A stretch of 64,000 nucleotides of DNA from Desulforamulus putei DSM 12395 (GTDB lineage: Bacteria > Bacillota > Desulfotomaculia > Desulfotomaculales > Desulfotomaculaceae), in contig NZ_FQUY01000013.1 in the NCBI RefSeq assembly GCF_900129195.1, positions 1 through 64,000 of the forward strand. The letters run 5' to 3'. The translations under genes and the position numbers were made by a program. The notes beneath the pieces were generated by a model. It did no database searches. It saw only the letters and a list, made by a program, of their open reading frames with translations, and was not told the origin of the DNA. Below, in pieces: positions 26,912 to 47,802 of this stretch; the stretch's first letter is position 1, and each line of letters opens with the position of its first letter.

Positions 26912-26942
26912 AAGCCCTCGAATAAAATATATTCGAGGGCTT
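26912..26942 (-). terminator. Terminator-like intercistronic hairpin (methyltransferase/SNF2)
   Basis: AAGCCCTCGAATA and TATTCGAGGGCTT are perfect 13-bp arms, followed on the minus strand by ATTTTGTTT and overlapping the stop of the upstream gene. It is preceded by ACTAAAA like the leader attenuators. Because the SNF2 gene starts 20 bases later, full termination here would silence the rest of operon C. Confidence 0.6.
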
Positions 26943-27989: not shown

Positions 27990-28230
27990 TTATACTCCCG
28001 CCTTTAAGTTCCCGATAAAGTTCCAACAAGGGGGCAGCGATATGAAGCAGCTCTTTTTCTACTTCATCTGTCTTTTCTGACAAGATTGCCCCAAACAAAT
28101 GTCCCATGTGTTCCTGGGCAATCATAGCCCAATCGCTCATGGGACGTCTTTTTTCGCCGTGCATCATGCGGTTGAGATCCACCTGGACTGCAACGGCTTT
28201 CAAAAAATCGTTTTTGGTTTGTTCTGTCAT
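27970..28230 (-). CDS. Small helical protein, MazG-like in pattern
   Basis: Eighty-six residues (MTEQTKNDFLKAVAVQVDLN). The run DWAMIAQEHMGHLFGAIL..EVEKELLHIAAPLLELYREL has the helix spacing of MazG-type nucleotide pyrophosphohydrolases. However, the usual ExxE metal ligands are replaced (QEHMGH), so activity is doubtful and the likeness may be superficial. It is the first gene of operon C, directly after the tandem-hairpin leader. AAAGGA sits nine bases before the ATG. Confidence 0.5.
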   Translation of the reverse strand: MTEQTKNDFLKAVAVQVDLNRMMHGEKRRPMSDWAMIAQEHMGHLFGAILSEKTDEVEKELLHIAAPLLELYRELKGGSINGKDRV

Positions 28231-28264
28231 TGTGTATCATCCTTTCTTTTTTTAAAATAAAAAA

Positions 28265-28293
28265 AGCCCTACTGTTAAAAAAACAATAAGGCT
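28265..28293 (-). terminator. Attenuator-type terminator of leader C
   Basis: In RNA sense AGCCTTATTGTT pairs over 12 positions, with wobbles, with AACAGTAGGGCT and runs into seven U residues. It lies between promoter C and the first gene of operon C, so it must be overcome for expression. Confidence 0.65.
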
Positions 28294-28328
28294 TTTTAGA
28301 CATAAATATAGTATTTTTTTAGATATAA

Positions 28329-28474
28329 GTACGCGCGTACCTGTTAAATTTTGTAATTTCTTTAACCGGTTCCCACTCGTGTGGCATCCGGTAAACAATC
28401 TCCCTATACAGTTCTCACTCGTGTGGCATCTGTATAGGACACCCTGCCTGGTTCCCACTCGTGTGGCATCCAGG
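28329..28474 (-). ncRNA. Leader C: three tandem ACGA-loop hairpins plus GTACGCGCGTAC palindrome
   Basis: Three 28-nt hairpins lie at 28365-28392, 28407-28434 and 28447-28474. In RNA sense each is a variable 5-bp outer stem, AUG, a 4-bp inner stem (CCAC/GUGG type), loop ACGA, GAA, and the outer stem closing. The outer stems differ completely between copies yet stay paired (ACCGG/CCGGT, TACAG/CTGTA, CCTGG/CCAGG). The palindrome is at 28329-28340. The leader follows promoter C by a few tens of bases. Confidence 0.75.
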
Positions 28475-28498
28475 AAATTAAAAACTAACTATAAAAAA

Positions 28499-28526
28499 AT
28501 TATAGCACCTGGTAAAAAAATGGCAA
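28499..28526 (-). promoter_or_regulatory. Promoter C of the clamp/SNF2 operon
   Basis: TTGCCA (28521-28526) and TATAAT (28499-28504) with a 16-bp spacer on the minus strand, a near-consensus sigma-A promoter. The spacer ends TTTACCAGGTGC, identical to the end of the promoter A spacer at 41424-41440. Confidence 0.8.
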
Positions 28527-28559
28527 TAGAAAAAAAGAAAAAAACCGGCCAACAGCCGG
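28527..28559 (-). terminator. Terminator of operon B
   Basis: CCGGCTGTTGGCCGG followed by a long U-rich run on the minus strand, placed directly upstream of promoter C. It ends the primase operon. Confidence 0.75.
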
Positions 28560-28618
28560 ATTCGGTAATTAGTTAGATTTTCTTGAAACGCATATTTTAA
28601 AGATATCATTTTTCTTAA

Positions 28619-28646
28619 ACCGGTTCCTGCTCGTGCAGTATCCGGT
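28619..28646 (-). ncRNA. Fourth ACGA-loop hairpin, in the 3' region of operon B
   Basis: RNA sense: ACCGG, AUA, CUGC, ACGA, GCAG, GAA, CCGGU. It has the same architecture as the leader hairpins with a different inner stem (CTGC/GCAG), but lies between the primase stop and the operon B terminator rather than after a promoter. Confidence 0.65.
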
Positions 28647-28668
28647 AAACTTTAATGGATTAAATTTT

Positions 28669-29745
28669 TTACATTGCCAAAGTTGTGATTTTTGCCCGAT
28701 TTACCAGGGCATCGTCAATACCTTTTCCTGCATGGACGCTCCAGTATGCTTTATAAACCTTAAACCCATGACCAGTTAACAGGTCAACGAGTTTACGGGT
28801 GGCTTTTTTAACACCAGGGTTATCCATACGGTCGATGTCGTAAGCTATCACAACTTTTTTGGCTCCGATTTCTTTTAACACTTCAGGAATTTCGTTAATA
28901 ATCGCCACTCCACCGTTGGCGATCATTGTTCTTCCTGAAAAGAAATGAGCAATATCAAGTTTTAAAGGGCCCTCGGTTAAGTAAACCGTAGTCGGGTCAT
29001 TCCCTATCCGGCAGTGAATAGGACTCCCGGAACCAGCACCTTTACTGGTAGAGAACCATTTGTACTTGCCCTTAGATTCGTCGTCAACACGAATCTGCAT
29101 GGCAATAATTTGTTTTTTAGGGTTCAGCACCGGGATAAAATAGCCTTCAGGAGCATAAAAGTCCCAATAGAGACCTTTTCTGCCTTCCCGTTGAAAAAAG
29201 CCAGGTATCTGGGTCAAATCATATTTTGGGGAAAGAATCCTGGCAATCTTCCACCTTTCGGGGCCATTATTTGGTACCGACTTATAATGGTTTTTCTTAA
29301 TAACCTCTTCAGGAAGTTTTCTCCTGATTAAGTCATTCCTGTGTTTGTCGTATAGGGGGAGCATAGATAAAAATTCTCTGTAGATAATATCCCGATATTC
29401 TGCTATACCCCCTTCGACTGTCCGCCTCACCCTGGGAGTTTCAACAGCCACTGATTCATAAAGTATGTTCCTCACTTCAGGGTTTTCCGATAACTGACGG
29501 TATGCTTCACTGTAAGTAATCCTCATTAAATCTCCATAAAGAGTAAGGGCATTGCCCTCTTTGCCACAGTTAAAACAGTGGAAGGTTTGTTTTCTGATAT
29601 TGGCACTGAAACGGGCTTTGTTAGGGTCTTTTTTGCTGTCACCGCAGAAAGGGCAGCGGTAAAACCACTCGTCACCAGATTTCTTTTTGGGTTCCATATT
29701 TAAAAGTCTGGCAACTTCTGCTATTTCAAAGACTTTAAGTGCCAT
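28669..29745 (-). CDS. DnaG-like primase with CHC2 zinc finger and TOPRIM domain
   Basis: The 358-residue protein opens with a zinc-binding region (Cys31-x2-Cys34 in YRCPFCGDS and HCFNC at 56-60), as in DnaG and phage primases. It continues with a catalytic TOPRIM domain: Glu in VYLTEGPLKLD near 258, Asp-x-Asp in VVIAYDIDRMDN near 303, and GKGIDDAL. It lacks DnaG's C-terminal DnaB-binding domain and is short, like many phage or plasmid primases. GAGGAGG precedes the ATG. Last gene of operon B, it probably primes lagging-strand synthesis of the element. Confidence 0.88.
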   Translation of the reverse strand: MALKVFEIAEVARLLNMEPKKKSGDEWFYRCPFCGDSKKDPNKARFSANIRKQTFHCFNCGKEGNALTLYGDLMRITYSEAYRQLSENPEVRNILYESVAVETPRVRRTVEGGIAEYRDIIYREFLSMLPLYDKHRNDLIRRKLPEEVIKKNHYKSVPNNGPERWKIARILSPKYDLTQIPGFFQREGRKGLYWDFYAPEGYFIPVLNPKKQIIAMQIRVDDESKGKYKWFSTSKGAGSGSPIHCRIGNDPTTVYLTEGPLKLDIAHFFSGRTMIANGGVAIINEIPEVLKEIGAKKVVIAYDIDRMDNPGVKKATRKLVDLLTGHGFKVYKAYWSVHAGKGIDDALVNRAKITTLAM

Positions 29746-29836
29746 ACCGCAACCTCCTCACGGAATATTTCATAGAAATCGGTGCCGACCTTGCGGCCGA
29801 CACCTTTTCCTCCCTTCGGTGCCGGCCAGGGCCGGG

Positions 29837-30922
29837 TTATTTAATACTAACGAGTTTAAAGTTTTTAGTTGGTTTAATACTGGCTCCTAATTCCGCAATT
29901 TCCTTATCTGTCCAATTCAATTTTTTAAGTCCTGTGGCGGTTAAGGAGAATACGGTTAAGGGGTCAATATTTTGGTCCTTCATTTTTTCCTCGGCCTTTT
30001 TCATGGCTTCCTGTGGAAATTTCCAGTATTGGGAAATTACTAAATCCCACTGTTTTTTTCCAACGGGAACCGGACCGTTTTTCTCAACATATTGCTTTAA
30101 CCGTTCTTTCATCAGGTCGGCGGCCCTTTCAAGCCGGCAGATTTCTCGACCGTATTTTTCTGCTTCTTTCATGCTTACAAACTCACCGGGATCATCTTCC
30201 AGTATATCGGCAAGCTTAGCGCATTCCTCGGCATACCCGCAGTATTCACAAACGTCCCCAGGGGTGGCCGGGAAAAGCTCGTCAAGATTACCGCCGCAGT
30301 TTAGGGCATATATTTTTTGCTGAATATCCAGCGCCGTATCATATGCCCACCTGCGGGCCTTTTCAATATCCTCCGGGGTATATAAGTGCTCCCGGGTTTC
30401 TCCTGTACGCAGGAACACCAGCCGACCGCAGACTGGTTTATTATACTTTTGCGTGAGGTACAGGGCATATAACCCTAATTGGTGAGTATCCAACGGGTTA
30501 TATGGAAGCCTGTTGGTTTTCCAGTCCGTTACGACAATCTCTGTATCCGTAACTTCGTAGTAGTCAATATATCCCTGCAGTTCTGGGCCAAAGGGGTCTT
30601 CCGGTGACAAGGAAATTTTGAAATATTCTTCGGTAAACCCCTTACCGATACTTTCAGTAACCTTTCTCCTGGTAGCCAGAGTCAGGATTTCTTCGGCATT
30701 AACAGGGAGTGAAGCTACACCTGCAATAGATTCAGCTAGGAACTTTAATTCTTCTTCTCTTTCAACTTTTAACACCCGAGCCATCTCAATAAGTGTGTGA
30801 ACCGATTTCCCGAGTACCAAAGCCTCGGTGACAGGCTCTTTCTTTTCAAGGATATAGCTCTGGGCAAAAGCCCAGGGGCAACGAGATTTTTTATCTAGTC
30901 TCGAATAAGAGAATACTTGCAT
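29837..30922 (-). CDS. RecB/Cas4-family PD-(D/E)xK nuclease with iron-sulphur-type cysteines
   Basis: A 361-residue PDDEXK_1 nuclease. It has a first Cys (SRCPWAFAQ), Asp in LQGYIDYYEV, the catalytic VVTDWKTNR, the QxxxY motif HQLGLYALY, and three clustered cysteines (CEYCGYAEEC) that with the first would hold a 4Fe-4S cluster, as in AddB and Cas4. The C-terminal 100 residues are helical and unassigned. The start at 30922 has AAAGGA eight bases upstream. It sits between the VWA protein and the primase in operon B. No cas1 is present, so DNA-end processing in recombination is likelier than spacer acquisition. Confidence 0.88.
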   Translation of the reverse strand: MQVFSYSRLDKKSRCPWAFAQSYILEKKEPVTEALVLGKSVHTLIEMARVLKVEREEELKFLAESIAGVASLPVNAEEILTLATRRKVTESIGKGFTEEYFKISLSPEDPFGPELQGYIDYYEVTDTEIVVTDWKTNRLPYNPLDTHQLGLYALYLTQKYNKPVCGRLVFLRTGETREHLYTPEDIEKARRWAYDTALDIQQKIYALNCGGNLDELFPATPGDVCEYCGYAEECAKLADILEDDPGEFVSMKEAEKYGREICRLERAADLMKERLKQYVEKNGPVPVGKKQWDLVISQYWKFPQEAMKKAEEKMKDQNIDPLTVFSLTATGLKKLNWTDKEIAELGASIKPTKNFKLVSIK

Positions 30923-30936
30923 TTTTATCATCCTTT

Positions 30937-33306
30937 CTAGCCAGCAATTACTTTTTTAAGCATCCTGCCGATGATAATTGGCAGGTTTTCTAATTGCTCT
31001 ACATTAATGAGGTTGTTATAAATTTTTTGAACAGTAGGCAATGATGAATCCGGGCCAAAGTAGAACCCGATAACACCAATTCCCTGTTTTTCGGCTTCAC
31101 GAACAGCAAGGGCGGTGTCTTTATATCCTTCTTCTCCTACATACTTGGTGTAACCATGCCACGGTTCTCCATCAGAGAGAACCATGATAATCTTTTTTAG
31201 CTCACTAACTGCTTGAAGTTCTTGAGTGGCGACCCTAATTGAGTAACCATCTCTGTTTTGAACTTCAGCCTTAATGTTTACTAATTTGGTTCCATCCTTT
31301 TCACCGAAATTTACATAGTTATGGTGGATCACAATATCGTGTCCTGTGAACGCTGTAAATCCGGTAATAGAATGGTTGATTTTAAGCTGGGTAAGGACTT
31401 CATGCAGCAACACAGCTGTTTTTCGGGCTGTTCTTACCCTGGTTCCACTCATGCTGCCGCTGCAGTCCACCAGCACCTTGATTGCCAGCGTCGGGTCGTC
31501 GGAGGGGTTATTCTTTTTACGGAACACCTTCGCATCAGCTACTCCCAATTTCCAAAGCGCCGATGGGTCAACCGCACCTTTCTTGAGGTTTCTGGCAATA
31601 AAGTGGTTTTTGTATTCCAACGCCTTCCTGATTTCATCCACTGTCCGAATTATGAGAGGGTTGATTTCTTTAACTAATTGGCTGTATCGGACAGTATCCC
31701 CGGGCAGGCTGTCAACACGTAGTCTAACATCCCTATTAATCCCCTTTGCCAAAACCGTTTCGATTTTAGAAAAGTCGATATCTATTACTGTCTCCGATTC
31801 TTTTTCGGTTTCGGCACGTTCGTAGAATTCGAGTTCTTCCTTTGAGGACTCCAAAAGCTCGCTAAAGTCAACATCTTCGTCGCGTTCTTCCGCAGTTTCA
31901 GGAAGGCTTGTTAACCTACCCCCTGGGCTTCCTCCTTCACCTTCGCTGGATTCCGGCGAGTCATCCGAAAACTCACCGCCAAAACCAGATGGCTCATCAA
32001 ATGGCTTGTCGGGTTCACCAGGAAAGTCTACGTCATCAGGAAATTCCCCTGGAAAGTCATCTTCCGGCAATTCTTCGGTTTCACCAGGTTCGGGCATACT
32101 GTCTGAAACATCTTTCGGAATATCTTCCCATAAGTCATCATCCCATGATTCATCTTTGGGTTCTACAGAAGGTTCGGTTTCCTCTGATGCGCTTTCGGGA
32201 ATTTTATCTGTGGTTTCTTCTGCGGTCTCTTTCAGAGTTTCATCTGTGGTCTCTTTTGGAGTTTCTTCGAGAGATTTTTCCGGGGCTTTCTCTGGGGTAT
32301 CTTCAGAAGTATCTTCCGGGGTTTCTTCCATGACTTCTTCTGGGGCTTCTTCTGGGGCTTTTTCTGGAGTTTCCCTTGGTGCTTTTCCCGAAGTATCTCC
32401 CGGAGCATCTTCGAGAGTTTCTTCAGGGGCTTTTTCCAGGGTTTTCTTTGCAGTTTCTCCAAGAGATTCCTCCGGGGATTCCTTCGGGGATTTCTCTGGA
32501 ATAACACTTTCTGAAGTATCCTCTTTAGCCGGAGTTTTAGAGGGTTTTTCCTTCAGCTTTTCGGTGGGTTCTTTTGACCTTTTTTTGGGTTCCCGTTCTG
32601 GAGGTCTGATTTTCGGTGTTTTTCGGGGGTCTTTCCCCATCATTTTGGGTTTCTTTTTAGCTTTGTCAGTACCTGTCATAGAAGGCTCCGGCAGTGATGG
32701 TGGTTCAGGAAAGTGTTTTTTAATAATTTCTGCCGCCTGGTCCGCAAGCTCTAAAACCTCCCAGGTATCATTAGCCTCCCTGCCAATATCAACTAAAGAA
32801 ATTAGTTCATAGATTACTTCCATGACATTATCCTGATCTTGAATAGAATCAGGAATGTCACCACAAACGGCATAAGTACACATGCCGTTGAGTACAGCTT
32901 CTATTCCGGTACCCCAATTCTTGCGGTTTTTGAAAATATACTCATTTTGAAACCGCAGCTGCATGGCAGTACCAGGGAAAACCGCAGCCATACATTTTTC
33001 GATACGGGAGTCCTCAATAATGTTGACTATGTGCTGGATGAGAACGCCTTTTTCACATGCACTCTTCCAAGCATTTATATCTGTGAAACGTATGTGCCCA
33101 GATTCATGTATGTTTTGGGCTTTCATTGCCAGCCAGCACTCCTCGGGGAGAGCCGGAATGCCAGGTACAATACTGTCGGTTAACTTTTTAACGAAAATCT
33201 TTTTGAAGTCGGTGCTGGCTCTATTGCTAAGCACCACCGTCAAATCGTCCACTTTGGTGAACATTCGGGCGAGTGTTTGCAACCGCCACCTTTTAAGTTC
33301 GGACAT
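30937..33306 (-). CDS. CobT-like VWA protein with HExxH motif and acidic repeat linker
   Basis: The 789-residue protein has three parts. Residues 1-200 are helical and contain an HExxH zinc motif (NIHESGHIRF, near 67). About 200-500 is a low-complexity acidic Pro/Glu/Thr linker with repeats such as EETPEKAPEE. From about 590 there is a von Willebrand A domain with an intact MIDAS (DCSGSMSG, later LSDGEPWHG). Such proteins pair with MoxR/CobS AAA ATPases, and one lies at 37121-38524 in operon A. The pair may act as a metal-dependent remodelling machine on DNA-bound complexes; the substrate is unknown. Second-largest gene of the replication operons. Confidence 0.85.
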   Translation of the reverse strand: MSELKRWRLQTLARMFTKVDDLTVVLSNRASTDFKKIFVKKLTDSIVPGIPALPEECWLAMKAQNIHESGHIRFTDINAWKSACEKGVLIQHIVNIIEDSRIEKCMAAVFPGTAMQLRFQNEYIFKNRKNWGTGIEAVLNGMCTYAVCGDIPDSIQDQDNVMEVIYELISLVDIGREANDTWEVLELADQAAEIIKKHFPEPPSLPEPSMTGTDKAKKKPKMMGKDPRKTPKIRPPEREPKKRSKEPTEKLKEKPSKTPAKEDTSESVIPEKSPKESPEESLGETAKKTLEKAPEETLEDAPGDTSGKAPRETPEKAPEEAPEEVMEETPEDTSEDTPEKAPEKSLEETPKETTDETLKETAEETTDKIPESASEETEPSVEPKDESWDDDLWEDIPKDVSDSMPEPGETEELPEDDFPGEFPDDVDFPGEPDKPFDEPSGFGGEFSDDSPESSEGEGGSPGGRLTSLPETAEERDEDVDFSELLESSKEELEFYERAETEKESETVIDIDFSKIETVLAKGINRDVRLRVDSLPGDTVRYSQLVKEINPLIIRTVDEIRKALEYKNHFIARNLKKGAVDPSALWKLGVADAKVFRKKNNPSDDPTLAIKVLVDCSGSMSGTRVRTARKTAVLLHEVLTQLKINHSITGFTAFTGHDIVIHHNYVNFGEKDGTKLVNIKAEVQNRDGYSIRVATQELQAVSELKKIIMVLSDGEPWHGYTKYVGEEGYKDTALAVREAEKQGIGVIGFYFGPDSSLPTVQKIYNNLINVEQLENLPIIIGRMLKKVIAG

Positions 33307-33326
33307 AATCTCAGCCCCTTTTTTTA

Positions 33327-33360
33327 AAAATAAATCCCCGCAAACAATTGTTAACGGGGT
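33327..33360 (-). terminator. Terminator-like intercistronic hairpin (DHH/VWA)
   Basis: ACCCCGTTAACAATTGTTTGCGGGG, in part, followed by ATTTATTTTTA on the minus strand, between the DHH stop and the VWA start. It is preceded by TAGTCCAAAAA, similar to the other intercistronic hairpins. Confidence 0.5.
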
Positions 33361-33367
33361 TTTTGGA

Positions 33368-34255
33368 CTATAATTTTTGTAGTAGAGACTTAATAAAGTC
33401 TTCTACTTTTCCTTCTGGCAGAGAACATCCGGCAGACTGGGGATGACCACCGCCACCGGCCAGTTTTGCAAGTTGAGCGACGTTAAATTCTTTTGAGCGA
33501 AATGATAATTTCCTGTCCCGGACATTGACAATTACCAAGAAGTCTATATCCATTTCTTGGTTTTTGTAGTATCCGAGTTCGGAAGTGTATTGTTCTGCAT
33601 AACATACTCCGAATTTAACAGGCCCTTCAAAAATATCTACATTTGTTTTGCGGATGTATTCCATCCGCTTTACTTGAACCGCATCAACTACTGTTTTTTC
33701 ATAGTCCGTCAGCTGTGGCACTGGGTTGTGCATAAATTTGTTTACCCAGTATTCCCGGCTGGTTGCAGAAAGTAAATCGTTTAGTGCAACCGCCATTTTA
33801 GATTCCGGTGATTCCGGGTTTTGCGTCCATAACCACATGTCGTATGTGTTTACTATATGAACTAACCTTGATAGTTCAAAATTTAAAAATTCAAAAAGCA
33901 AGTTTGCATTATTATCCCATTCAAGTTCTTTAAACATAATACAGGCTCCACATAACGAAGTGTCGATAACACACCAGGGATATTTCTGCATCCATAAAGC
34001 TGTCGCATGGTGGTCAAACAGACGCACCTTCATCCCTGCAGAATTGGCTTTGTCGAGTTCCCGAGCTACTTCTTTATTAACAGAAATATCGGCTAAATAT
34101 AGAAGTTCCGGTTCACTTACTAACAAATCCATAACTTTTTGGTTTACAGTCTTATAGTCCTCGTAAAAAATAACACTGTCTGGAAAGGCTGTTTTAAACA
34201 CTACGGCACATGCACACCCGTCCATGTCGTTATGGGTCACAAGAATTTTTTTCAT
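33368..34255 (-). CDS. DHH-family phosphoesterase
   Basis: A 295-residue DHH/DHHA1 protein. It has THNDMDGCACAVVF near residue 7, YLADISVN, the name motif DHHATALW and the DHHA1 glycine loop AGGGGHPQSAGC near the C-terminus. Family members include RecJ exonuclease and oligonucleotide or cyclic-dinucleotide phosphodiesterases such as NrnA and GdpP. This size without membrane or OB domains is nearest to NrnA-like enzymes that degrade short oligonucleotides. The start at 34255 follows AGGGGGAT by eight bases. Second gene of operon B. Confidence 0.85.
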   Translation of the reverse strand: MKKILVTHNDMDGCACAVVFKTAFPDSVIFYEDYKTVNQKVMDLLVSEPELLYLADISVNKEVARELDKANSAGMKVRLFDHHATALWMQKYPWCVIDTSLCGACIMFKELEWDNNANLLFEFLNFELSRLVHIVNTYDMWLWTQNPESPESKMAVALNDLLSATSREYWVNKFMHNPVPQLTDYEKTVVDAVQVKRMEYIRKTNVDIFEGPVKFGVCYAEQYTSELGYYKNQEMDIDFLVIVNVRDRKLSFRSKEFNVAQLAKLAGGGGHPQSAGCSLPEGKVEDFIKSLLQKL

Positions 34256-34271
34256 TTTTATATATCCCCCT

Positions 34272-34472
34272 TTAGCCAACTAATTCTTTGATTTCCTGCA
34301 TCCATTGGGCGTTTTCTTTTGCCCGATGGTATTTCTTTGAGCCATTATCAATAGAAAAATCAAAACTGGCCTTAGACAGCCAGTTACCTTCTTCTTCTCC
34401 CAGGGCTATTGCCCTTTTTTTAATTATCCTTGTCCTGTGAAGTAATACCTTTGACCTTTCGTGTCTTTGCAT
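34272..34472 (-). CDS. Small basic hypothetical protein
   Basis: Sixty-six residues (MQRHERSKVLLHRTRIIKKR), strongly basic at the N-terminus, helical throughout, unknown family. The ATG at 34472 is eight bases from AAGGAG; the ATG two codons earlier is too close to it. First gene of operon B, directly after leader B, as other small proteins lead or follow the leaders here. It may bind nucleic acid. Confidence 0.55.
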   Translation of the reverse strand: MQRHERSKVLLHRTRIIKKRAIALGEEEGNWLSKASFDFSIDNGSKKYHRAKENAQWMQEIKELVG

Positions 34473-34582
34473 TCGCATCTCTCCTTAAGCCATATTTTTT
34501 TAACCGAGGGCTCCCTGGTACCACCAGGAGAGCCAATAAAGTGATACCAGCAAACACCCCCTTTATTTTTTTTGAAAATAAA

Positions 34583-34612
34583 AAGGCCCTGATTAAAGAT
34601 AATCAGAGCCTT
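34583..34612 (-). terminator. Attenuator-type terminator of leader B
   Basis: AAGGCTCTGATTA and TAATCAGGGCCTT form a 13-bp stem with a TCTT loop, followed by TTTATTTTC on the minus strand. It lies between promoter B and the first gene. Confidence 0.65.
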
Positions 34613-34754
34613 TTAGTCAAGACTTATAATATATTTTTGAAATAACAAAGGAAACAAGCATACGAGTCCGATCCGCTAAGGGATCTCAATACTCGAAGCA
34701 TTGTTTCCCGTTCTAGCTGTCTTTAATTCTATTAATTATTCTTTAGAAACACAC

Positions 34755-34874
34755 GTACGCGCGTACGCGCGTACCTGTTAAATAATGTAAATCACTAAGA
34801 CAGTACCTACTCGTGTAGCATCTGTCACACACTCATAACCATCCTGGCTAGTTCCTGCTCGTACAGCATCTAGC
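34755..34874 (-). ncRNA. Leader B: two tandem ACGA-loop hairpins plus doubled palindrome
   Basis: Hairpins lie at 34799-34826 (outer stem GACAG/CTGTC, inner CTAC/GTAG) and 34847-34874 (outer GCTAG/CTAGC, inner CTGT/GCAG), both 28 nt with loop ACGA. GTACGCGCGTAC occurs twice, overlapping, at 34755-34774. Between them lies TAACAGGTAC-type sequence shared with leaders A and C. Confidence 0.75.
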
Positions 34875-34898
34875 TAATTAGAAACTAAAATATAGTAA

Positions 34899-34927
34899 AT
34901 TATAACACCCCTAATTAAGATAATCAA
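34899..34927 (-). promoter_or_regulatory. Promoter B of the DHH/VWA/nuclease/primase operon
   Basis: TTGATT (34922-34927) and TATAAT (34899-34904) with a 17-bp spacer on the minus strand. The -35 adjoins TAGTTCAC (34928-34936 region), the usual end of an IS200/IS605 element, so the promoter may be partly built from an element end. Confidence 0.75.
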
Positions 34928-34936
34928 GACAGTGAA

Positions 34937-35358
34937 CTACCCACCACTTCACTATTCGAGTTATCACAAAGGGGAACACATCAATATACAGCGGAAGATA
35001 TGGCCTGTTTTCTTGATCAGGTACACCGGTGTTAGTGGGGCATTGGTTTTCTTGGTAAATCTACAGATTATTCCAGCAAGATATTATTCCATATCCAATC
35101 GCTGACGGAGGGTAGGACTGGATGAGGATTCCTTTATGTTAGTGCGATGGAGAAAAAGTTATCTTCCCGGAAGGGTTTAATCACGGTCAAAATCACTCTT
35201 ACCCTAGCACAACAACTTATAGGGTGATACAGAAAATTTATTTTATGGATTTGGATAAATTTTGGGCAAATTTTTTTCTATAAGAGAGGATATTTTACCA
35301 ATAAAAGGTATTATTAACTATAAATGGTTTGTGCATAAAATATAAGGTGGTGTAAGAT
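34937..35358. other. Non-coding segment between promoter B and a small plus-strand gene
   Basis: I see no gene in about 420 bases. Short inverted repeats include ATTATTCCAGCAAGATATTATTCC and TACCCTA..TATAGGGT. The left edge carries a remnant IS200/IS605 end (AGTGGTGGGTAGTTCAC on the minus strand). The AT-rich stretch at 35255-35350 may hold a plus-strand promoter. Confidence 0.4.
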
Positions 35359-35394
35359 GTGGGCAAGAGTAGGAAATTTAGGAAGGTGAGAAAG

Positions 35395-35565
35395 ATGTTA
35401 GCACCCAAAGCACTTTCCACGCAACAAAGATTGCTTAGAGCTGCAGAGTTGGCTAAAAGAGTTTATGCTAAAGTTGAGGCTCGTGGGCTTACTGAGGAAC
35501 AATTAAGAGCAGACATTAAGAAGGCTCGTGAGGATGTCAGAAGTCGTCGTCCCTATCGTACTTGA
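35395..35565 (+). CDS. Small basic helical protein, possibly an antitoxin remnant
   Basis: Fifty-six residues from MLAPKALSTQQRLLRAAELA, preceded by AAGGTGAG. A longer version from the GTG at 35359 adds a very basic MGKSRKFRKVRK. The tail GLTEEQLRADIKKAREDVRSRR resembles the helical C-terminus of AbrB/VapB-type antitoxins, but there is no DNA-binding fold and no toxin gene follows (IS remnants do). It is the only plus-strand gene between 18.7 and 64 kb. Confidence 0.45.
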   Translation: MLAPKALSTQQRLLRAAELAKRVYAKVEARGLTEEQLRADIKKAREDVRSRRPYRT

Positions 35566-35609
35566 TTTATACTACTATTGAGTAAATAAGTCAATAGAAA
35601 GGGGGATAA

Positions 35610-35868
35610 GCCGCTTTCCTCCCCTGAATAAATTCAGGGGTATCCAGCGGCGAGATTTCATGAAGAAAATGCGGACTACAATGCAGCAAGAAACATAAGC
35701 ATGTCAACTAAATACATAGACAGCAATTAAGTAATTTATTGTAAATTTTAGGCTGACTCCGCAGCCTGAAGGTGAGAAGTGTTGCTAGAGCCCTTTGTGG
35801 ACGTGCAATAACGCTCACCAAGCTCCGGGTGAACATCCGGAGGCACCCCCTGAAGTCAGGGGAGCGCC
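35610..35868 (+). pseudogene. TnpB RuvC-III fragment with element right end
   Basis: In one frame the plus strand reads ENADYNAARNISMSTK and a stop at about 35730, the terminal RuvC-III motif of TnpB with its Asp and Asn. It is preceded by a hairpin (CTCCCCTGAATAAATTCAGGGG) and followed by the typical right-end stems (CTCCGGGTGAACATCCGGAG and CCCCCTGAAGTCAGGGG). Everything upstream of RuvC-III is missing. Confidence 0.7.
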
Positions 35869-36023
35869 ATATAGCTGGAAAACATTTTTCAGGAACAGTA
35901 TAACTTATGCCTTTAGCACAATTTGTCGTCGATCCTACGTGGTTTTTGCGCTATTACCAGTCGACAACAAAATTACCTTTTTCAAGCTCCAACAAACCAG
36001 GCAAACCAATGCTTTCACAACGA

Positions 36024-36186
36024 GTTCTGGTACCAGCTATATGGGGCTGGAGCGCCCCGCTATAACATCCTTTTGGGCCCGGCAGTGGTGGTTCTGGTAC
36101 CAGCTATATGGGGCTGGAGCATCCATCAATAGTGCAGACATAGTCACCAGTGTAGGGTTCTGGTACCAGCTATATGGGGCTGGAGC
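36024..36186. CRISPR. CRISPR-like array, three identical 30-nt repeats of unknown type
   Basis: Perfectly identical 30-bp repeats at 36024-36053, 36091-36120 and 36157-36186 are separated by unrelated spacers of 37 and 36 bp. The repeat begins GTTCTGGTACCAG and holds a hairpin CCAGC/GCTGG. Repeat and spacer sizes fit CRISPR, but the sequence matches no class I know and differs from the repeats at 12959 and 19232. No cas gene is near. Orientation is not clear. Confidence 0.65.
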
Positions 36187-36233
36187 CTTCTATACTCATA
36201 TTCACACCTTTCCTTCTTTCGCATTATTTAGCG

Positions 36234-36270
36234 AAAGTGCATCAGAAGAATTTCACCTCTGATGCACTTT
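36234..36270. terminator. Hairpin terminator after operon A
   Basis: AAAGTGCATCAGA and TCTGATGCACTTT are perfect 13-bp arms. The U-run is better on the plus strand (CTTTTTG), but the position also closes the minus-strand operon ending at 36293. Confidence 0.6.
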
Positions 36271-36292
36271 TTGAATGTTATACGCATTAGCA

Positions 36293-36649
36293 TTAACTAC
36301 AAGGATTATCTTTACGACATTTATATTCGCAAGTATTTTTTATTCTGCACATAAAACAACAGTCGGTGAAACCATGCGGGCATTCCTGGCATTCATTTGT
36401 CGATTGCTCTAATACCTCTGAAACAACATCCGTTCCTACTTGCTTTTGAATCATTCCGGTTCCTCTGCAAGATCCACAGAAGATAGCTTCACAGATGAAG
36501 CCTTCTTCAAAAATACATTTACTGTAACCACTTCCCCCGCAAACAGGGCATGGCATTTTGACGTTTTCAGGAACCGAAATTTGGGATACCGGTATTTTGT
36601 GTATACAACCTTTAACCTTCATTTCTCCAATATTGCAGTAATGATTCAT
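36293..36649 (-). CDS. Cysteine-rich zinc-finger protein
   Basis: A 118-residue protein with 15 or more cysteines in CxxC pairs: MPCPVCGGSGYSKC and IFCGSCRGTG resemble the DnaJ-type zinc knuckle CxxCxGxG. A further cluster, CQECPHGFTDCCFMC, follows. It may fold a partner protein or bind nucleic acid. AAGGGGG is seven bases before the ATG. Last gene of operon A. Confidence 0.65.
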   Translation of the reverse strand: MNHYCNIGEMKVKGCIHKIPVSQISVPENVKMPCPVCGGSGYSKCIFEEGFICEAIFCGSCRGTGMIQKQVGTDVVSEVLEQSTNECQECPHGFTDCCFMCRIKNTCEYKCRKDNPCS

Positions 36650-36661
36650 TTTTGAACCCCC

Positions 36662-37081
36662 TTAATTAATATTTTCGCGGTAAATTTTGAACATGGCAAA
36701 GTGGTATCGGCCCCACTTATTTACTGCCTCCAAAAAGGCATCCATGTTTTCACGATAACTGTTTTCTACTTCCGCAAGCACTTGATCTATATGCTTTTTA
36801 ATATCGGGACGATGTTTTTCTACCCATTCATAACACCCAGCAGGGTAGGCAGCCCGGACTTCATTATACACTTCCATCCAAGCCGAATCTGCCTTAGCCT
36901 CATCCCATGATATTACCTTCAGCAACTCATCGTGTTTGGCAGATCTAAGTTTTTGTAATAAAGCCATTGCATCCCCCGGTATTTCCTTTGGGGATTTCCA
37001 AGGCAACTTAATGTTGGGCTTTCCGCCCTGAATACTGAATTGCACCCCGTATGTTCTTAATTTATCGACCAGGGTTTTCAC
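36662..37081 (-). CDS. Hypothetical protein with TubC-like N-terminal domain
   Basis: The 139-residue protein begins VDKLRTYGVQFSIQGGKPNI followed by KLRSAKHDELLKVI. This beta-beta-helix pattern resembles the TubC docking module, often found at one end of plasmid primases and helicases. The C-terminal half is helical (HRPDIKKHIDQVLAEVENSY). Function unknown; it might dock a replication protein. Part of operon A. Confidence 0.55.
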   Translation of the reverse strand: MKTLVDKLRTYGVQFSIQGGKPNIKLPWKSPKEIPGDAMALLQKLRSAKHDELLKVISWDEAKADSAWMEVYNEVRAAYPAGCYEWVEKHRPDIKKHIDQVLAEVENSYRENMDAFLEAVNKWGRYHFAMFKIYRENIN

Positions 37082-37120
37082 GTTTGCACTCCCTTTTTAG
37101 ATAGCAAAGCCAGGGGTGGC

Positions 37121-38524
37121 TTATGCTAATAGGCTTTGGCAAATATCAGTTACCTGCTCGATTTCGTACTTATCGCCTAGGCCCTCGGTCAAAACGCTGA
37201 TGGCAGCACTCTTTAAATTGCTCCCATCCATATACTCCTCCGCAATAGTGAACAGCGCCCGGACGGAAAGAGTTCTGTCTGAGATGTCACCGTTTTTTAC
37301 TCTCTCTGAAAGTAGTTGGAACAATTCAGAGAGCTTTCGGGCGATCTCTCGTTTTACCCCGGTTTTGTCCTGAATGAGTGACGTTAAATTCTCTCTAGTC
37401 AGATGAGGCACATAAATAGACCGAAAGCGGTCTTGGAATGCCTCATTTAAGGGCTTCGTTCCTGCGTATCCGTAGTTCATGCAGGCAACCAGCCTAAAGG
37501 ACTCGGGGGCTTTTACCTCGCCATAACCGGGAACCGAAAGGGTTTTCTGCCAGTCAAGCAACCCATGCAGTAGGGAGGTTACCTCGGGGATGAGCATATT
37601 GACTTCATCCACCACCACTAACTCCCCATTTAACACAGCAGATAAAAGAATGCCCGGCTCGAAACCAATTTTAAGCTGTGCGCCCCTTAGTTTTTGGACT
37701 AACGGCTCAGCATCTATTCCTGCGGCCTTACATGCAGCCCTTAATTTGGTTTCCGTAATCAAGTCAACGCCCTCCTGGGGTTCCAACGTCTTGGACCCTA
37801 ACAGGGCTTCGGCAGACAAGTCGATTCCTCCGAATATTTTCCGAATCGGGAGCATCAGTATTGCCGCCAGGGTTTCGGCCATGGTAGACTTACCGGACCC
37901 CTTCGGACCAATCAATAGCGGTGCTACCCATGAGGAACGAGTCATATTACCGACCGCCCGGATAACTTCCTCACCGGACGGAATATAATTCGCTTCGGGA
38001 ATTCTGGATAATTGTTCCGGGGTTAACTTTTCTTTTTGTTTAGCCCGGAACTCTAAAACTCTTTTCAATATCCGCGGAGGGAAGTTAAACCTTGCCAACC
38101 AGCGGTCCTCATCAGGGAGATCAACGGTTTCAGGTATAATTTCTTCCCCTTCGGTTTCATAGACCGGTTTTAAAAGTTCAAACCGGCCTTTGCGACCTAA
38201 TTTTTCTTCGGTTAGGTCTTTTACGATTCTCACCGTATTGGGGTCAGGGATGACACCTGATACGGTAACCTCTTCCCGGCGGTTGAAGCCTCTAGCAAAA
38301 TCTATCAGGGCCGCCAGATGCCAGCATGGCATCCCCTTTTCAATCGCCATGCAATGATGGTCCACAATAAGAGTACCAGGATTAATCCGGCACAAAAAAG
38401 GATTGGTTGAGGCCATCATTTCGGCGTATATTAAGCCGTCAGCACCCAGACCAACGGTTAATATGTTATCTTTTTGCTCAATGTATTTATTGTAATTTTT
38501 TTCGAATACACTGATTTTTTTCAT
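37121..38524 (-). CDS. MoxR/CobS-like AAA ATPase
   Basis: A 467-residue AAA+ protein with Walker A LIGPKGSGKSTMAE near 205, Walker B LVVVDEVNML, and the sensor region FRLVACMNYGYAG. The first 150 residues carry CMAIEKGMPCWHLAAL, a partial SWIM-type zinc motif, and are not typical of MoxR. CobS/MoxR ATPases work with VWA proteins (here 30937-33306) to remodel a target complex (family knowledge). The start at 38524 has AAAGGA eight to nine bases upstream. Part of operon A, separated from its VWA partner by about 4 kb but sharing the leader type. Confidence 0.85.
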   Translation of the reverse strand: MKKISVFEKNYNKYIEQKDNILTVGLGADGLIYAEMMASTNPFLCRINPGTLIVDHHCMAIEKGMPCWHLAALIDFARGFNRREEVTVSGVIPDPNTVRIVKDLTEEKLGRKGRFELLKPVYETEGEEIIPETVDLPDEDRWLARFNFPPRILKRVLEFRAKQKEKLTPEQLSRIPEANYIPSGEEVIRAVGNMTRSSWVAPLLIGPKGSGKSTMAETLAAILMLPIRKIFGGIDLSAEALLGSKTLEPQEGVDLITETKLRAACKAAGIDAEPLVQKLRGAQLKIGFEPGILLSAVLNGELVVVDEVNMLIPEVTSLLHGLLDWQKTLSVPGYGEVKAPESFRLVACMNYGYAGTKPLNEAFQDRFRSIYVPHLTRENLTSLIQDKTGVKREIARKLSELFQLLSERVKNGDISDRTLSVRALFTIAEEYMDGSNLKSAAISVLTEGLGDKYEIEQVTDICQSLLA

Positions 38525-38548
38525 AAGAACCATCCTTTCTAAAAATGA

Positions 38549-38580
38549 AAGAGGACAGCCTTAAAAAAGACCGTCCTCTT
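38549..38580 (-). terminator. Terminator-like intercistronic hairpin (Sak4/MoxR)
   Basis: AAGAGGACGG and GCTGTCCTCTT arms, followed by TCATTTTT on the minus strand, between the ATPase stop at 38588 and the MoxR start. GGCTAAA precedes it, as before the SSB hairpin. Confidence 0.5.
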
Positions 38581-38587
38581 GTTTAGC

Positions 38588-40222
38588 CTATACAGCAGAC
38601 TTATTATGGGATTTAATACCCGTAATGAATAAGACATTACTGCCTTTAAACTGCTGAACGTTGCCGGTGACAACCAGAATGTCATTTTCTTTAACAGGGG
38701 GCAGTTTAAGCCCGGACTCCTGATCTACCGCAACAACGCCTTTATTTTCGCCCACGAAGGCCCAGAACCAGTGGACCTTCAGTAATTTACCATTTTCTTC
38801 CGCAGAACCTTCCGCCGGAAGTGAGGCCACTTTCAAAGTATAAGTGGGTTCCTCATCGGCTTTAGGAGGTTCCTCAGCAGGGCTTCCAAAGGACTTGTAG
38901 GACTCAACAGTTACTATACCGTCCTTGATTTTCCCGGTAATCTCTACGCCTTCGCCGGGTTTTAAACCTTCGATGTTGCCAACAATGGTCAGAAGGTTGT
39001 CTGTTGCAACATCGAATCCTTTGAAGCCGCCTTCAACGGGATCGGTTATAGCAACCATTCCGGTATAAGGTTCACCTTCGTCCTCTCCCGCAAAAGTGAT
39101 GGTAATGCCGGCATACGTTCCGGCTTCCTTGCCATCATTTAACCATTCTGCAGGAGGGGTTAAGGTTTCATCGGGAGTACCTGGAAGTTGGGGCTCAACC
39201 TCGATCTTTTCAAATTGAGCAACCTTAACCTTACCCTCTTTGAATTGACCTTTGATTTTATATTTTTCGCCTTCAGCAAAGGAACTGAGTTTTTCGTCGC
39301 CTACCAAGCCGTCCACCTTACCGTCCTCTGAGGTTACAGTAACGGTGTAGTAAACACGCTTTTCGCCATGCTTTTCAGGGGCGGCAGCGATGGTTACAAC
39401 ACCTTCGTAAACCTCAACCTGTGGCTTCGGATCAGTTTTTGGAGGTTCAGGTTTGGATTCGAGTTTAGCTTCAGGTTTAGGTTCGGGTTCCGGGGGATCA
39501 ATCGGCACACCGCCTGCATTCAGCCAATCCAGCAGGATTTGACCGGTTTGAACCGACGGCTTGAAATACCGACCATCCAGCGTGTTGGTGCGGTCTTTTG
39601 AGGCCCTGGCCATATGGTCATGGTCGATGTCCAAAAAGACCGTGAATTCGTATTCCATGCCGTCCCTTTGGATAGGTGCCATGCCCACTTTTCTAATAAC
39701 GGTTTTCCCTCTATCATCAACCGTTTGGACGTACTCAGTTTTCGCCCTAATTGTTGCCAAAATGTGCAGCTTGGACTGCAGCATGGCATCGACCAGTGCA
39801 TTATGCTGCGGCGTGACTTTGCGCCACGCTGCCCAAGAATTGTTTACCTCCCCACGGTCAACAATACCACCGTGGATGTCTAACAAACCTCCCTGACCTG
39901 CCCAGGCGTGGGTTAACGAATCAATAATCAGCGCTTTTAACCCACTTCTTTCGGCCATTTCAATTGCTTGAATGTATTTTTCCGGGGTAAAGGGAGGAGT
40001 AATCTCGCAAGTTAAGTATTGGCCGATGCGGACACCGTTGATTTCAGCTCCGACATAGAGTTCGCCGGAGCGATTTTCAGTATCGGCAATACCAATGAGC
40101 CCCCAATCTTTTACCAGCCCATAAGCCATTAATAGTGAACTGGCAGTCTTACCGGAACCTGAAGGGCCACTGATACCTAATTTTATAAAAGCATTAGACC
40201 TTTTGGCAGGACGAAATTCCAT
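38588..40222 (-). CDS. Sak4-like RecA-fold ATPase with C-terminal OB-like repeats
   Basis: The 544-residue protein starts with a RecA-type ATPase of about 240 residues: Walker A ISGPSGSGKTASS at 17-29, Walker B ALIIDSLTHAW and a sensor ATIRAKTEYV. This is the AAA_24/Sak4 form used by phages for single-strand annealing with their own SSB, and ssb is the gene just upstream. After a Pro/Lys/Glu linker there are two or three beta-rich repeats (about 290-350, 385-455, 470-540; YKIKGQFKEGKVKV, VEITGKIKDGIVTVESY, LVVTGNVQQFKGSNVLFITG) that look like OB folds. It is probably a recombination mediator of the element. Confidence 0.82.
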   Translation of the reverse strand: MEFRPAKRSNAFIKLGISGPSGSGKTASSLLMAYGLVKDWGLIGIADTENRSGELYVGAEINGVRIGQYLTCEITPPFTPEKYIQAIEMAERSGLKALIIDSLTHAWAGQGGLLDIHGGIVDRGEVNNSWAAWRKVTPQHNALVDAMLQSKLHILATIRAKTEYVQTVDDRGKTVIRKVGMAPIQRDGMEYEFTVFLDIDHDHMARASKDRTNTLDGRYFKPSVQTGQILLDWLNAGGVPIDPPEPEPKPEAKLESKPEPPKTDPKPQVEVYEGVVTIAAAPEKHGEKRVYYTVTVTSEDGKVDGLVGDEKLSSFAEGEKYKIKGQFKEGKVKVAQFEKIEVEPQLPGTPDETLTPPAEWLNDGKEAGTYAGITITFAGEDEGEPYTGMVAITDPVEGGFKGFDVATDNLLTIVGNIEGLKPGEGVEITGKIKDGIVTVESYKSFGSPAEEPPKADEEPTYTLKVASLPAEGSAEENGKLLKVHWFWAFVGENKGVVAVDQESGLKLPPVKENDILVVTGNVQQFKGSNVLFITGIKSHNKSAV

Positions 40223-40258
40223 AGTTGAATCCTCCTTAATTAATAATTTTTAGATGTG

Positions 40259-40285
40259 AAAGGGCAGGTTTATTTCCTGCCCTTT
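40259..40285 (-). terminator. Terminator-like intercistronic hairpin (ssb/Sak4)
   Basis: AAAGGGCAGG and CCTGCCCTTT are perfect 10-bp arms followed by a weak run, between ssb and the Sak4-like gene. GGCTAAAGGGC at its 5' side matches the other hairpins. Confidence 0.5.
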
Positions 40286-40300
40286 AGCCTTAGTTAGTTA

Positions 40301-41056
40301 TTAAAACGGTATGTCGTCCAAATCTCCGAACGGATTGTCACCGAATGGATTGGATTCCTTTTTCTTCGAGCTGAATGGGTTTTCTAAAGGTGGAGTTTCC
40401 TCAGCTTTAGAACCACCGCCATTACTACCGCCGCCGCAAAGACGAACGGTGTTTACTATAATTTCCCATGCGGTACGTTCTTCACCCTCTTTTGAGGTAT
40501 ATCTCCGGCTCCGAAGGCTGCCTTCAACCAGGAGTGGAGTACCTTTTTTGATGTACTGGCAGGTCTTTGCTGCTTCCCAATATTGGCAGTTAAAAAAGTC
40601 TGTCCCATCGTCTTTGTTGAAACCGCGATTAACCGCAATCGCAAAGTTGCCAACGTCTTTGCCATTTGTCGTTGTCCTATTTTCACAATCTTTTGTGGAT
40701 CGCCCAAGCAGGACAACTTCGTTTAAAAACGGGACTTCTTCCTCGGTTACAGGGAAGGGAATAATTCTCGTAAGAACAAGCTCAACTACTTTTTTCTTAG
40801 CGCCGCCGTCAAGCTCTATGGTCCGGTCAATAAGGCGACCTTCAACCATATAAAACTTGTTGGCTTCCACGTTTTTAACAACGGCAACCTGTCCGTTATA
40901 GGCGTGGATATTAAGTGACATCGAAACATACTGCCGACCTTCCTCGTTCGTGCGGACTATCTCCAGCACAAAACGAGCATAAGGTTGATCTCCCTCCGTT
41001 ACATCCGGGAATCCAGCAGCTCTTCCAATAAATCTTGCTTTGTTGTAAAAAGACAT
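40301..41056 (-). CDS. ssb: Single-stranded DNA-binding protein with two OB folds
   Basis: A 251-residue SSB. The first OB fold (about 1-105, KARFIGRAAGFPDV and QYVSMSLNIHAYNGQ) and the second (about 110-215, NEVVLLGRSTKDC, FNCQYWEAAKTCQYIKKGT) are in tandem; most bacterial SSBs have one per chain. The tail ends DLDDIPF, the acidic tip that recruits partner proteins. I take the ATG at 41056, eight bases after AAAGGA. A TTG at 41173 preceded by AAGGAGGTGG is also open and would add 39 residues. First gene of operon A. Confidence 0.9.
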   Translation of the reverse strand: MSFYNKARFIGRAAGFPDVTEGDQPYARFVLEIVRTNEEGRQYVSMSLNIHAYNGQVAVVKNVEANKFYMVEGRLIDRTIELDGGAKKKVVELVLTRIIPFPVTEEEVPFLNEVVLLGRSTKDCENRTTTNGKDVGNFAIAVNRGFNKDDGTDFFNCQYWEAAKTCQYIKKGTPLLVEGSLRSRRYTSKEGEERTAWEIIVNTVRLCGGGSNGGGSKAEETPPLENPFSSKKKESNPFGDNPFGDLDDIPF

Positions 41057-41106
41057 TAAAATCATCCTTTCTCGAAATAAAATATTTTTAAGACCTGTGG
41101 TCTGTC

Positions 41107-41153
41107 GCTTCGTTAGTCCCCTTATGGGACTAACGAAGCAGTCCCATAAGGGG
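41107..41153 (-). promoter_or_regulatory. Mutually exclusive hairpins upstream of ssb
   Basis: Two perfect 14-bp inverted repeats overlap. GCTTCGTTAGTCCC (41107-41120) pairs with 41126-41139, and CCCCTTATGGGACT (41118-41131) pairs with 41140-41153. Only one can form at a time. A strong AAGGAGGTGG lies just upstream in the transcript (41174-41183 region). The layout is that of a two-state RNA switch or translation attenuator. Confidence 0.6.
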
Positions 41154-41219
41154 AAAATAATGATGGCGGTCAACCACCTCCTTTAGAGAGTAAAAAATTT
41201 AAGGCTTATAAACGCAAAA

Positions 41220-41247
41220 AAGCCCTTAATGCGAACATTAAGAGCTT
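41220..41247 (-). terminator. Attenuator-type terminator of leader A
   Basis: AAGCTCTTAATG, loop TTCG, CATTAAGGGCTT, then TTTTGC on the minus strand: a 12-bp stem with a stable UUCG loop, between promoter A and ssb. Confidence 0.7.
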
Positions 41248-41280
41248 TTAGAACTAAATATTTATGAATTTTTAGACACA

Positions 41281-41392
41281 GGTACGCGTATACCTGTTAA
41301 ATAATGTAAATCATCCAAGCAGTCCCCACTCGGGTGGCATCTGTCAATACTCAAAATCACCCTGCTCGGTTCCTGTTCGTACAGCCTCCGAG
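41281..41392 (-). ncRNA. Leader A: two tandem ACGA-type hairpins plus variant palindrome
   Basis: Hairpins at 41318-41345 (inner stem CCAC/GTGG, loop CCGA, outer stem partly mispaired) and 41365-41392 (outer CTCGG/CCGAG, inner CTGT/ACAG, loop ACGA), both 28 nt. GGTACGCGTATACC at 41281-41294 replaces the perfect palindrome. TTTACATTATTTAACAGGTA is shared with leader B. Confidence 0.72.
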
Positions 41393-41417: not shown

Positions 41418-41446
41418 ATTATAGCACCTGGTAAAAAACTTGGCAA
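41418..41446 (-). promoter_or_regulatory. Promoter A of the ssb operon
   Basis: TTGCCA (41441-41446) and TATAAT (41418-41423) with a 17-bp spacer on the minus strand. The spacer shares TTTACCAGGTGC with promoter C. Confidence 0.8.
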
Positions 41447-41470
41447 CATGGTAATAAGAAATAATGTTGT

Positions 41471-41547
41471 TGTTCTGTGATATTGTCACTATATAACTGT
41501 TCTGTGAAAATGTCACTATGGAACAGGAAAGGTGACATTTTCACAGA
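41471..41547. promoter_or_regulatory. Three operator-like sites TCTGTGANANTGTCACT
   Basis: Copies lie at 41474-41490 and 41502-41518 on the plus strand and, inverted, at 41532-41547. The second and third form a perfect 16-bp inverted repeat. Each copy has GTGA..TCAC symmetry. They lie just upstream of promoter A and touch the end of the winged-helix-like gene at 41548, so its product or another regulator may bind here. Confidence 0.6.
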
Positions 41548-42153: not shown

Positions 42154-42189
42154 GATCAAAACTCCTTTGAATGGTAAATTCAAAACGGG

Positions 42190-43269: not shown

Positions 43270-43284
43270 CCCAAATTCCTCCTT

Positions 43285-47779: not shown

Positions 47780-47802
47780 TTTCACCAACCCTTTCTATTG
47801 TT

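Follow-up and report, generated by a model that had tools for sequence, protein, structure and literature searches.

Tandem ACGA-loop hairpins in the leaders of a Desulforamulus putei mobile element as candidate antiterminator sites

What do eight copies of a 28-nucleotide (nt) RNA hairpin do in a mobile element of Desulforamulus putei DSM 12395? The hairpins lie in a 64,000-nt stretch of contig NZ_FQUY01000013.1 (positions 1 to 64,000, hereafter the window), seven of them in the leaders of three DNA-metabolism operons, and an initial annotation had described them as a conserved RNA structure bound by a protein. That view probably stands, and three observations now add context to it: a constant spacing between promoter and first hairpin, a terminator for each hairpin cluster and, in sister elements, a different hairpin accompanied by a NusG paralog. 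Through this context the idea of a protein binding the hairpin becomes a concrete antitermination hypothesis, in which the hairpins would, with a probability of roughly two in three, be antiterminator sites of the element's DNA-metabolism regulon in a system resembling LoaP or put. They are not a widespread RNA class and would instead represent this element's variant of an antitermination leader plan common to a family of mobile elements.

All eight 28-base units were present at the positions originally described. Because all genes around the hairpins are on the minus strand, the RNA was read from that strand, on which all hairpins, promoters, terminators and leader boxes given below lie, and it follows the pattern N5-AUG-N4-ACGA-N4-GAA-N5'. 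Leader A contains hairpin 1 (28447-28474), hairpin 2 (28407-28434), which has one C.A mismatch in the inner stem, and hairpin 3 (28365-28392), which reads ACCGG-AUG-CCAC-ACGA-GUGG-GAA-CCGGU. Leader B contains hairpins 1 (34847-34874) and 2 (34799-34826), and leader C contains hairpin 1 (41365-41392), where AUG is replaced by AGG, and hairpin 2 (41318-41345), which has a CCGA loop and an imperfect outer stem. The imperfection in the latter is one A.C mismatch, and the outer stems match in seven of eight copies as had been claimed. A single hairpin (28619-28646) lies directly behind the stop codon of a primase-like gene. The loop is ACGA in seven of the eight units, and the pair closing it is standard in all eight (C-G in six, U-A in one and U-G in one). 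The AUG was considered as a start codon and ruled out, as one copy has AGG, another has AUA and the frames are not conserved.

The double compensation reported for the stems was confirmed in an eight-copy alignment (A2). Standard pairs occupied 97.2% of 72 pair cells against 74.8% in shuffles, changes on both sides were found in seven of nine stem pairs and the covariation score was 0.84 against 0.34, with none of 500 shuffles as high in pairing or covariation. Pairing fell to 22-49% when the partner was shifted by one column. Folding was better than in shuffles for seven of the eight units (z -2.3 to -4.9), the unit at 41318-41345 being the exception (z -1.0). A model built from the four units at 28.3-28.65 kb detected the four distant units, 6 and 13 kb away, with E values of 6e-9, 3e-8, 5e-8 and 5e-5, and the consensus with up to three mismatches gave 10 matches in the window, eight of them the true units, against 1.2 expected. 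Covariation and leave-out detection support a conserved RNA structure arranged in tandem, in what appear to be transcribed leaders.

No ninth copy was found in the window or in the rest of the genome, the ninth match there lying inside coding sequence. The hairpin was likewise not found in 398 genomes of the phylum or in 100 related genomes, where the sole weak match (genome G060) lies inside a gene resembling a sensor kinase. The ACGA hairpin model (R1) had no match in the sister elements described below, and a BLAST search of the leaders against plasmids and phages returned none. When viral contigs and genome contigs were scanned with the consensus pattern, 52 and 119 stretches were obtained, respectively, which were treated as chance because they rescored with R1 at no more than 28 bits against 40-52 bits for the true copies; the conserved leader tail had 42 matches in viral contigs, the pattern being short and the DNA AT-rich. 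At the Rfam gathering score nothing relevant was found in the window, the HEARO RNA being the only match, and leader A at a lax threshold likewise gave nothing relevant; no Rfam family matched, in keeping with the initial annotation, which knew of no named RNA with this structure. By sequence, the ACGA hairpin does not form a widespread RNA class, as no copies were found beyond this element in the searched genomes, plasmids, phages and viral contigs. The covariance search for further copies proposed in the initial annotation succeeded for the distant units of the element itself and yielded none outside it, a result that by the annotation's own refutation test counts in part against it.

Each hairpin array stands at a set distance behind a predicted promoter. 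The promoters of leader A (TTGCCA-16-TATAAT, 28499-28526) and leader C (TTGCCA-17-TATAAT, 41418-41446) match the consensus at 11 of 12 positions and, like that of leader B (TTGATT-17-TATAAT, 34899-34927), have an extended -10 TG. No other gene-strand promoter in the window combines an extended -10 with 10 or more of 12 matches, and after each of the three the first hairpin of an array follows at 24-25 nt, the distance from the -10 box being 24 nt in leaders A and B and 25 nt in leader C. The first hairpin begins about 18 nt into the predicted transcript and the pitch within arrays is 40-48 nt. The leader order is promoter, hairpins, a conserved stretch ending in AACAGGTAYRCGCGTAC, an intrinsic terminator and the first gene.

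Predicted intrinsic terminators were located downstream of all four hairpin clusters, 67, 55, 68 and 184 nt away; of random positions on the minus strand, 3% have one within 110 nt. The terminator of leader A (28261-28297) is 67 nt past the last hairpin and upstream of a gene for an 86-amino-acid protein, that following the single hairpin (28545-28563) is 55 nt on, that of leader B (34581-34614) is 184 nt past the last hairpin and upstream of a DHH gene, and that of leader C (41218-41249) is upstream of the SSB gene. Structure prediction for leaders A and B has the hairpins pairing within themselves, with the terminator formed in the same fold. A simple alternative-pairing switch is disfavoured because the hairpins are 67-184 nt from the terminator and, in these folds, self-paired.

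Several further repeats were noted in the leaders. A conserved box in leader A (AACAGGTACGCGCGTAC, 28329-28345), between hairpins and terminator, is matched by palindromic boxes in leader B (34763-34779) and leader C (41282-41298). The palindrome around GTACGCGCGTAC occurs at these positions in all three leaders, with further copies at 15594-15610 and at loci L228, L234 and L235, and genome G026 has a similar palindrome between leader hairpins and terminator (L234, about 9233-9254). This palindrome was weighed as a common operator and set aside, copies being found also inside genes. A long inverted repeat, GGGAAACAA...TTGTTTCC (34655-34724, minus strand), lies between palindrome and terminator in leader B, and neither leader A nor leader C has it. 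Repeated TGTTCTGTGA(A/T)A(A/T)TGTCACTAT-like units (41470-41545) immediately before promoter C possibly form an operator or iteron array.

Operon A encodes the 86-amino-acid conserved protein (27970-28230, without a Pfam match), a DUF6094 methylase and a helicase. Operon B encodes a DHH/DHHA1 (RecJ-like) protein (33368-34279), a VWA/CobT protein, a PD-(D/E)XK protein and, upstream of the single hairpin, a primase-like protein with a DnaG zinc ribbon (28669-29745). Operon C encodes SSB (40301-41173), an AAA_24 protein and an AAA_5 protein, and all of these gene coordinates are for the minus strand. Intergenic terminator-like hairpins with T-rich tails were found in all three operons, between the DUF6094 and helicase genes in A (26912-26942), the PD-(D/E)XK and primase genes in B (29781-29804) and the AAA_24 and AAA_5 genes in C (38549-38580). 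Since these sit between the genes, read-through would be needed in each of the operons.

Sister elements were found in other genomes of the class via the VWA protein (43% identical), with a conserved order of the VWA, PD-(D/E)XK, primase, AAA, SSB, S1, TraG and ParM genes. Homologs of the 86-amino-acid gene are present in four of them and are behind a leader too in the three checked. In G057 and G017 a promoter, three hairpins and a terminator precede the homolog, with an extra small open reading frame in between in G017; G036 has two hairpins in the equivalent leader and G059 has similar three-hairpin leaders. Searching with a model of six sister-leader hairpins (R2) revealed additional tandem pairs in these elements, spaced 37-52 nt apart and mostly again in the order promoter, pair and terminator. 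A pair behind the primase gene in G057 and G017 stands where the window has its single hairpin.

The sister hairpin is of a different class with a bulged A and a CU-UUNA-AG signature, which was seen in five elements, and includes a subtype in G057, G017 and G104 in which a purine (A in 8 of 10) bulges out two pairs beneath its UUNA or UUU loop. Its stems covary, none of 500 shuffles reaching the observed pairing or covariation in an alignment that was fitted to the model and includes some reverse-strand matches. At E <=0.001 the class was found only in these sister elements, and the 60 kb fetched from G026 contained no UUNA hairpins. An R2 scan of the window matched none of its hairpins, and the combined loop and stem signature is not common to both classes. 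Common to window and sister leaders are the layout, the pitch and the positions upstream of the 86-amino-acid gene and after the primase gene.

A NusG-domain search identified a short NusG paralog, besides the housekeeping NusG, on the sister element in G017, G057, G104, G059 and G063. G036 has one on its S1-bearing contig and G052 has a homolog too, and in total the paralog is encoded by seven of eight sister elements, G026 being without it. The paralogs are about 140-165 amino acids long (G057:C1:931164, G017:C37:21025, G036:C22:26945, G059:C55:12227, G063:C20:24267, G104:C146:58038 and L231:14480-14851), and by eye their genes adjoin ParM/ParR-like genes and a RusA-like gene. Five elements have both the hairpin class and the paralog and two have neither; G063 and G052, where the paralog is present, stand outside this count. 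The best models for the paralog were UpxY, NusG, LoaP and RfaH, and because every match was below the curated cut-offs of these named models it would represent an unnamed branch of the LoaP/UpxY/RfaH superfamily. Wherever the region was read, the paralog slot precedes a homolog of the window gene at 47183-47788. In the D. putei element the slot is taken by three replication-type genes and an orphan gene for a 125-amino-acid protein (47803-48180, minus strand) just upstream of 47183-47788.

A leader hairpin, a terminator and a NusG paralog together form a LoaP-type signature and mobile elements are known to use RNA antiterminators, and the window hairpins are read as antiterminator sites on these grounds. 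Transcription of each of the three DNA-metabolism operons would begin at its strong extended -10 promoter and the first ~20-130 nt of the transcript would fold into two or three small hairpins, with the intrinsic terminator standing between them and the first gene. RNA polymerase bearing these hairpins would turn terminator-resistant, either directly or via a bound factor, and would read into the operon and past the intergenic terminator-like hairpins. In the sister elements it is the element-encoded NusG paralog that would most likely carry out antitermination with the different hairpin. With a different hairpin and no paralog in D. putei, another factor would have to recognise the ACGA hairpin; the hairpin of this LoaP/put-like system, and probably its partner, would have been swapped here. 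A stronger version of this proposal, which we advance tentatively and hold to be doubtful, is that the element lost the NusG-paralog system found in its sisters and took on two new components, a minimal antiterminator RNA consisting of the ACGA hairpin with its AUG/GAA internal loop and, as its reader, a new non-NusG protein (perhaps the 125-amino-acid protein) or RNA polymerase itself, which would constitute a new class of processive antitermination.

The candidate readers of the ACGA hairpin would be the 125-amino-acid protein, an S1-domain protein (42412-43299, minus strand) or RNA polymerase itself. The 125-amino-acid protein had no convincing family match and no relatives in the plasmid collection; two AbrB-like units were seen by eye, with a non-significant match (E 0.99), and an AlphaFold2 prediction from the single sequence gave no usable model, with a predicted local distance difference test (pLDDT) score of 34.5. 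The S1-domain protein, an alternative RNA-binding partner, is encoded in all seven element-bearing genomes searched, that of D. putei included. This ribosomal-S1-like protein, encoded beside the TraG coupling protein, is conserved in every sister element checked (about 46-50% identity), and its presence in a conjugation region is unusual. A Pfam scan of the element proteins gave no ANTAR-domain protein, and the searches of D. putei found neither a NusG paralog nor another known antiterminator.

A number of observations weigh against antitermination. The exact ACGA hairpin is confined to one element among everything searched, and its covariation was measured among eight paralogous copies of that element. 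The promoters and terminators are consensus matches predicted from sequence, the terminator of leader B is distant from its hairpins, and intergenic terminators occur also in operons of this element that have no hairpins. In the sister elements no clear terminator follows the post-primase hairpins of G057 and G017 or the L241 pair of G036. A PF02357 search of the D. putei genome gave only the nusG gene next to secE/rplK, to which a profile of the sister paralogs added only a 12.6-bit match; by these searches the factor in this element cannot be a recognisable NusG paralog.

Negative control would fit a leader with hairpins and a terminator equally well. In this alternative an element protein would bind the tandem hairpins and promote termination or block the leader in a TRAP-like or autoregulatory manner, so that the operons are off when the product is abundant and three operons of one pathway are co-regulated. 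We consider repression unlikely given that the sister hairpin layout co-occurs with a NusG paralog, which belongs to a class known for antitermination, and that terminators between the operon genes favour control of read-through. A sub-case of antitermination, with hairpins that fold at the 5' end of the transcript, remain bound to RNA polymerase and act on it without a dedicated protein as HK022 put does, is unlikely. The putL site consists of two stem-loops just downstream of an early promoter (PMC9378689), comparable to the two or three hairpins that begin at about +18 here, and the lack of a NusG paralog or other known antiterminator among the proteins found here would agree with direct action. 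However, put is compact, with adjacent stems in ~70 nt against a pitch of 40-48 nt here, and near-identical repeats with variable stems and fixed loops resemble repeated protein-binding sites. The single hairpin at 28619-28646 would also need to act alone.

Structured 5' ends stabilise mRNA in Firmicutes, and the hairpins could be elements of mRNA processing or stability; alternatively, terminated leaders would be small RNAs with two or three similar sites and could serve as a sponge for an RNA-binding protein. Both variants are distinctly unlikely, as they leave unexplained the terminator after every cluster, including the post-primase one, and the NusG paralog of the sister elements. It is very improbable that the hairpins function as single-stranded DNA structures for transfer or replication, such as relaxase, IS200-like or single-stranded origin hairpins, rather than as RNA. 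The element does have conjugation genes, SSB and enzymes related to single-stranded DNA, but the hairpins are always on the transcribed strand, at a fixed distance from promoters and before terminators, and all eight copies have one orientation.

Antitermination by leader RNA has several precedents with which the D. putei leaders can be compared. By binding to a hairpin in the leader, LoaP suppresses intrinsic termination that is aided by NusA (PMC12691694). The likeness to the dfn/mln leaders of LoaP, which acts in processive antitermination of long operons, includes a small hairpin in the 5' leader followed by an intrinsic terminator, and the NusG paralog of the sister elements falls within the LoaP/UpxY/RfaH range. 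The LoaP hairpin is single and of the UNCG type (PMC12691694), whereas the hairpins here are repeated two or three times with ACGA (window) or UUNA (sister) loops, the genome of the window is without a NusG paralog and the targets are mobile-element DNA-metabolism operons rather than antibiotic clusters.

Phages, plasmids and conjugative elements use the RNA antiterminators put, EAR, conAn and canT (PMC9378689, PMC8955417, PMC11658703), of which conAn and canT belong to Gram-positive mobile elements (PMC8955417, PMC11658703), and RfaH-like genes occur on plasmids (PMC7819879). HK022 put has two stem-loops near an early promoter (PMC9378689) and, like the leaders described here, precedes terminators and early genes of a mobile element. 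By description it differs as a compact unit of ~70 nt that acts on RNA polymerase alone, through the zinc-binding domain of the enzyme, whereas the present hairpins are near-identical repeats whose stems vary, and the sister elements carry a protein. Also by description, conAn of pLS20 comprises the ConAn1 protein and conAn2 RNA and canT of Tn916 is an RNA of >300 nt, whereas the D. putei element has multiple short repeated hairpins distributed over at least three operons.

The sites of ANTAR proteins (EutV/NasR/AmiR) are also tandem small hairpins upstream of a terminator with conserved loops and variable stems. In those sites the loop has six nucleotides, among them A1 and G4, and alternative pairing prevents the motif and the terminator from forming at once (PMC3369931). 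The present loops are ACGA tetraloops, a six-base reading of which would start with C or U; the terminator lies at a distance of 55-184 nt and forms alongside the leader hairpins in the same predicted fold. The EAR (epsC) RNA is likewise an RNA antiterminator for long operons in Firmicutes, but Rfam gave no EAR match in the window. Type III toxin-antitoxin loci consist of a promoter, tandem RNA repeats, a terminator and a gene; the genes here encode SSB, DHH and the 86-amino-acid conserved protein rather than an endoribonuclease toxin, and three unrelated operons have the same repeats. Type III toxin-antitoxin, ANTAR and T-box readings were ruled out on anatomy.

To our knowledge few RNA antiterminators have been described, namely put, EAR, conAn, canT, the LoaP hairpins, boxA/boxB and ANTAR sites. 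Within this family of mobile elements the leader plan stays the same while the hairpin changes, and the most likely reader protein is gone from one member as well, which offers a system in which evolutionary swapping of an antiterminator RNA and its partner can be tested. The leaders would provide a large element with a coordinated early-gene switch, and the hairpins, as short and modular RNA parts, lend themselves to a clear loss-of-function design.

The contig, 80.5 kb in full, includes a type IV secretion system coupling protein, Tad pilus genes, a ParM-like protein, DnaN, RecD2 and SSB, and from this gene content is a large conjugative-type element, either plasmid or integrated. A 211-amino-acid gene (41548-42183) has a winged-helix look by eye and matched no family. 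The HEARO RNA (Rfam RF02033, 127.8 bits) is located at 16074-16285 on the minus strand beside a small open reading frame (15644-16036) that by eye may encode an HNH-type partner. An IS200/IS605-type pair of TnpA and TnpB was recognised by eye at locus L203 (14297-14695 and 13000-14352, or about 76.3-76.7 and 75.0-76.4 kb of the contig), with close relatives at 60-64% identity in sister genome G057.

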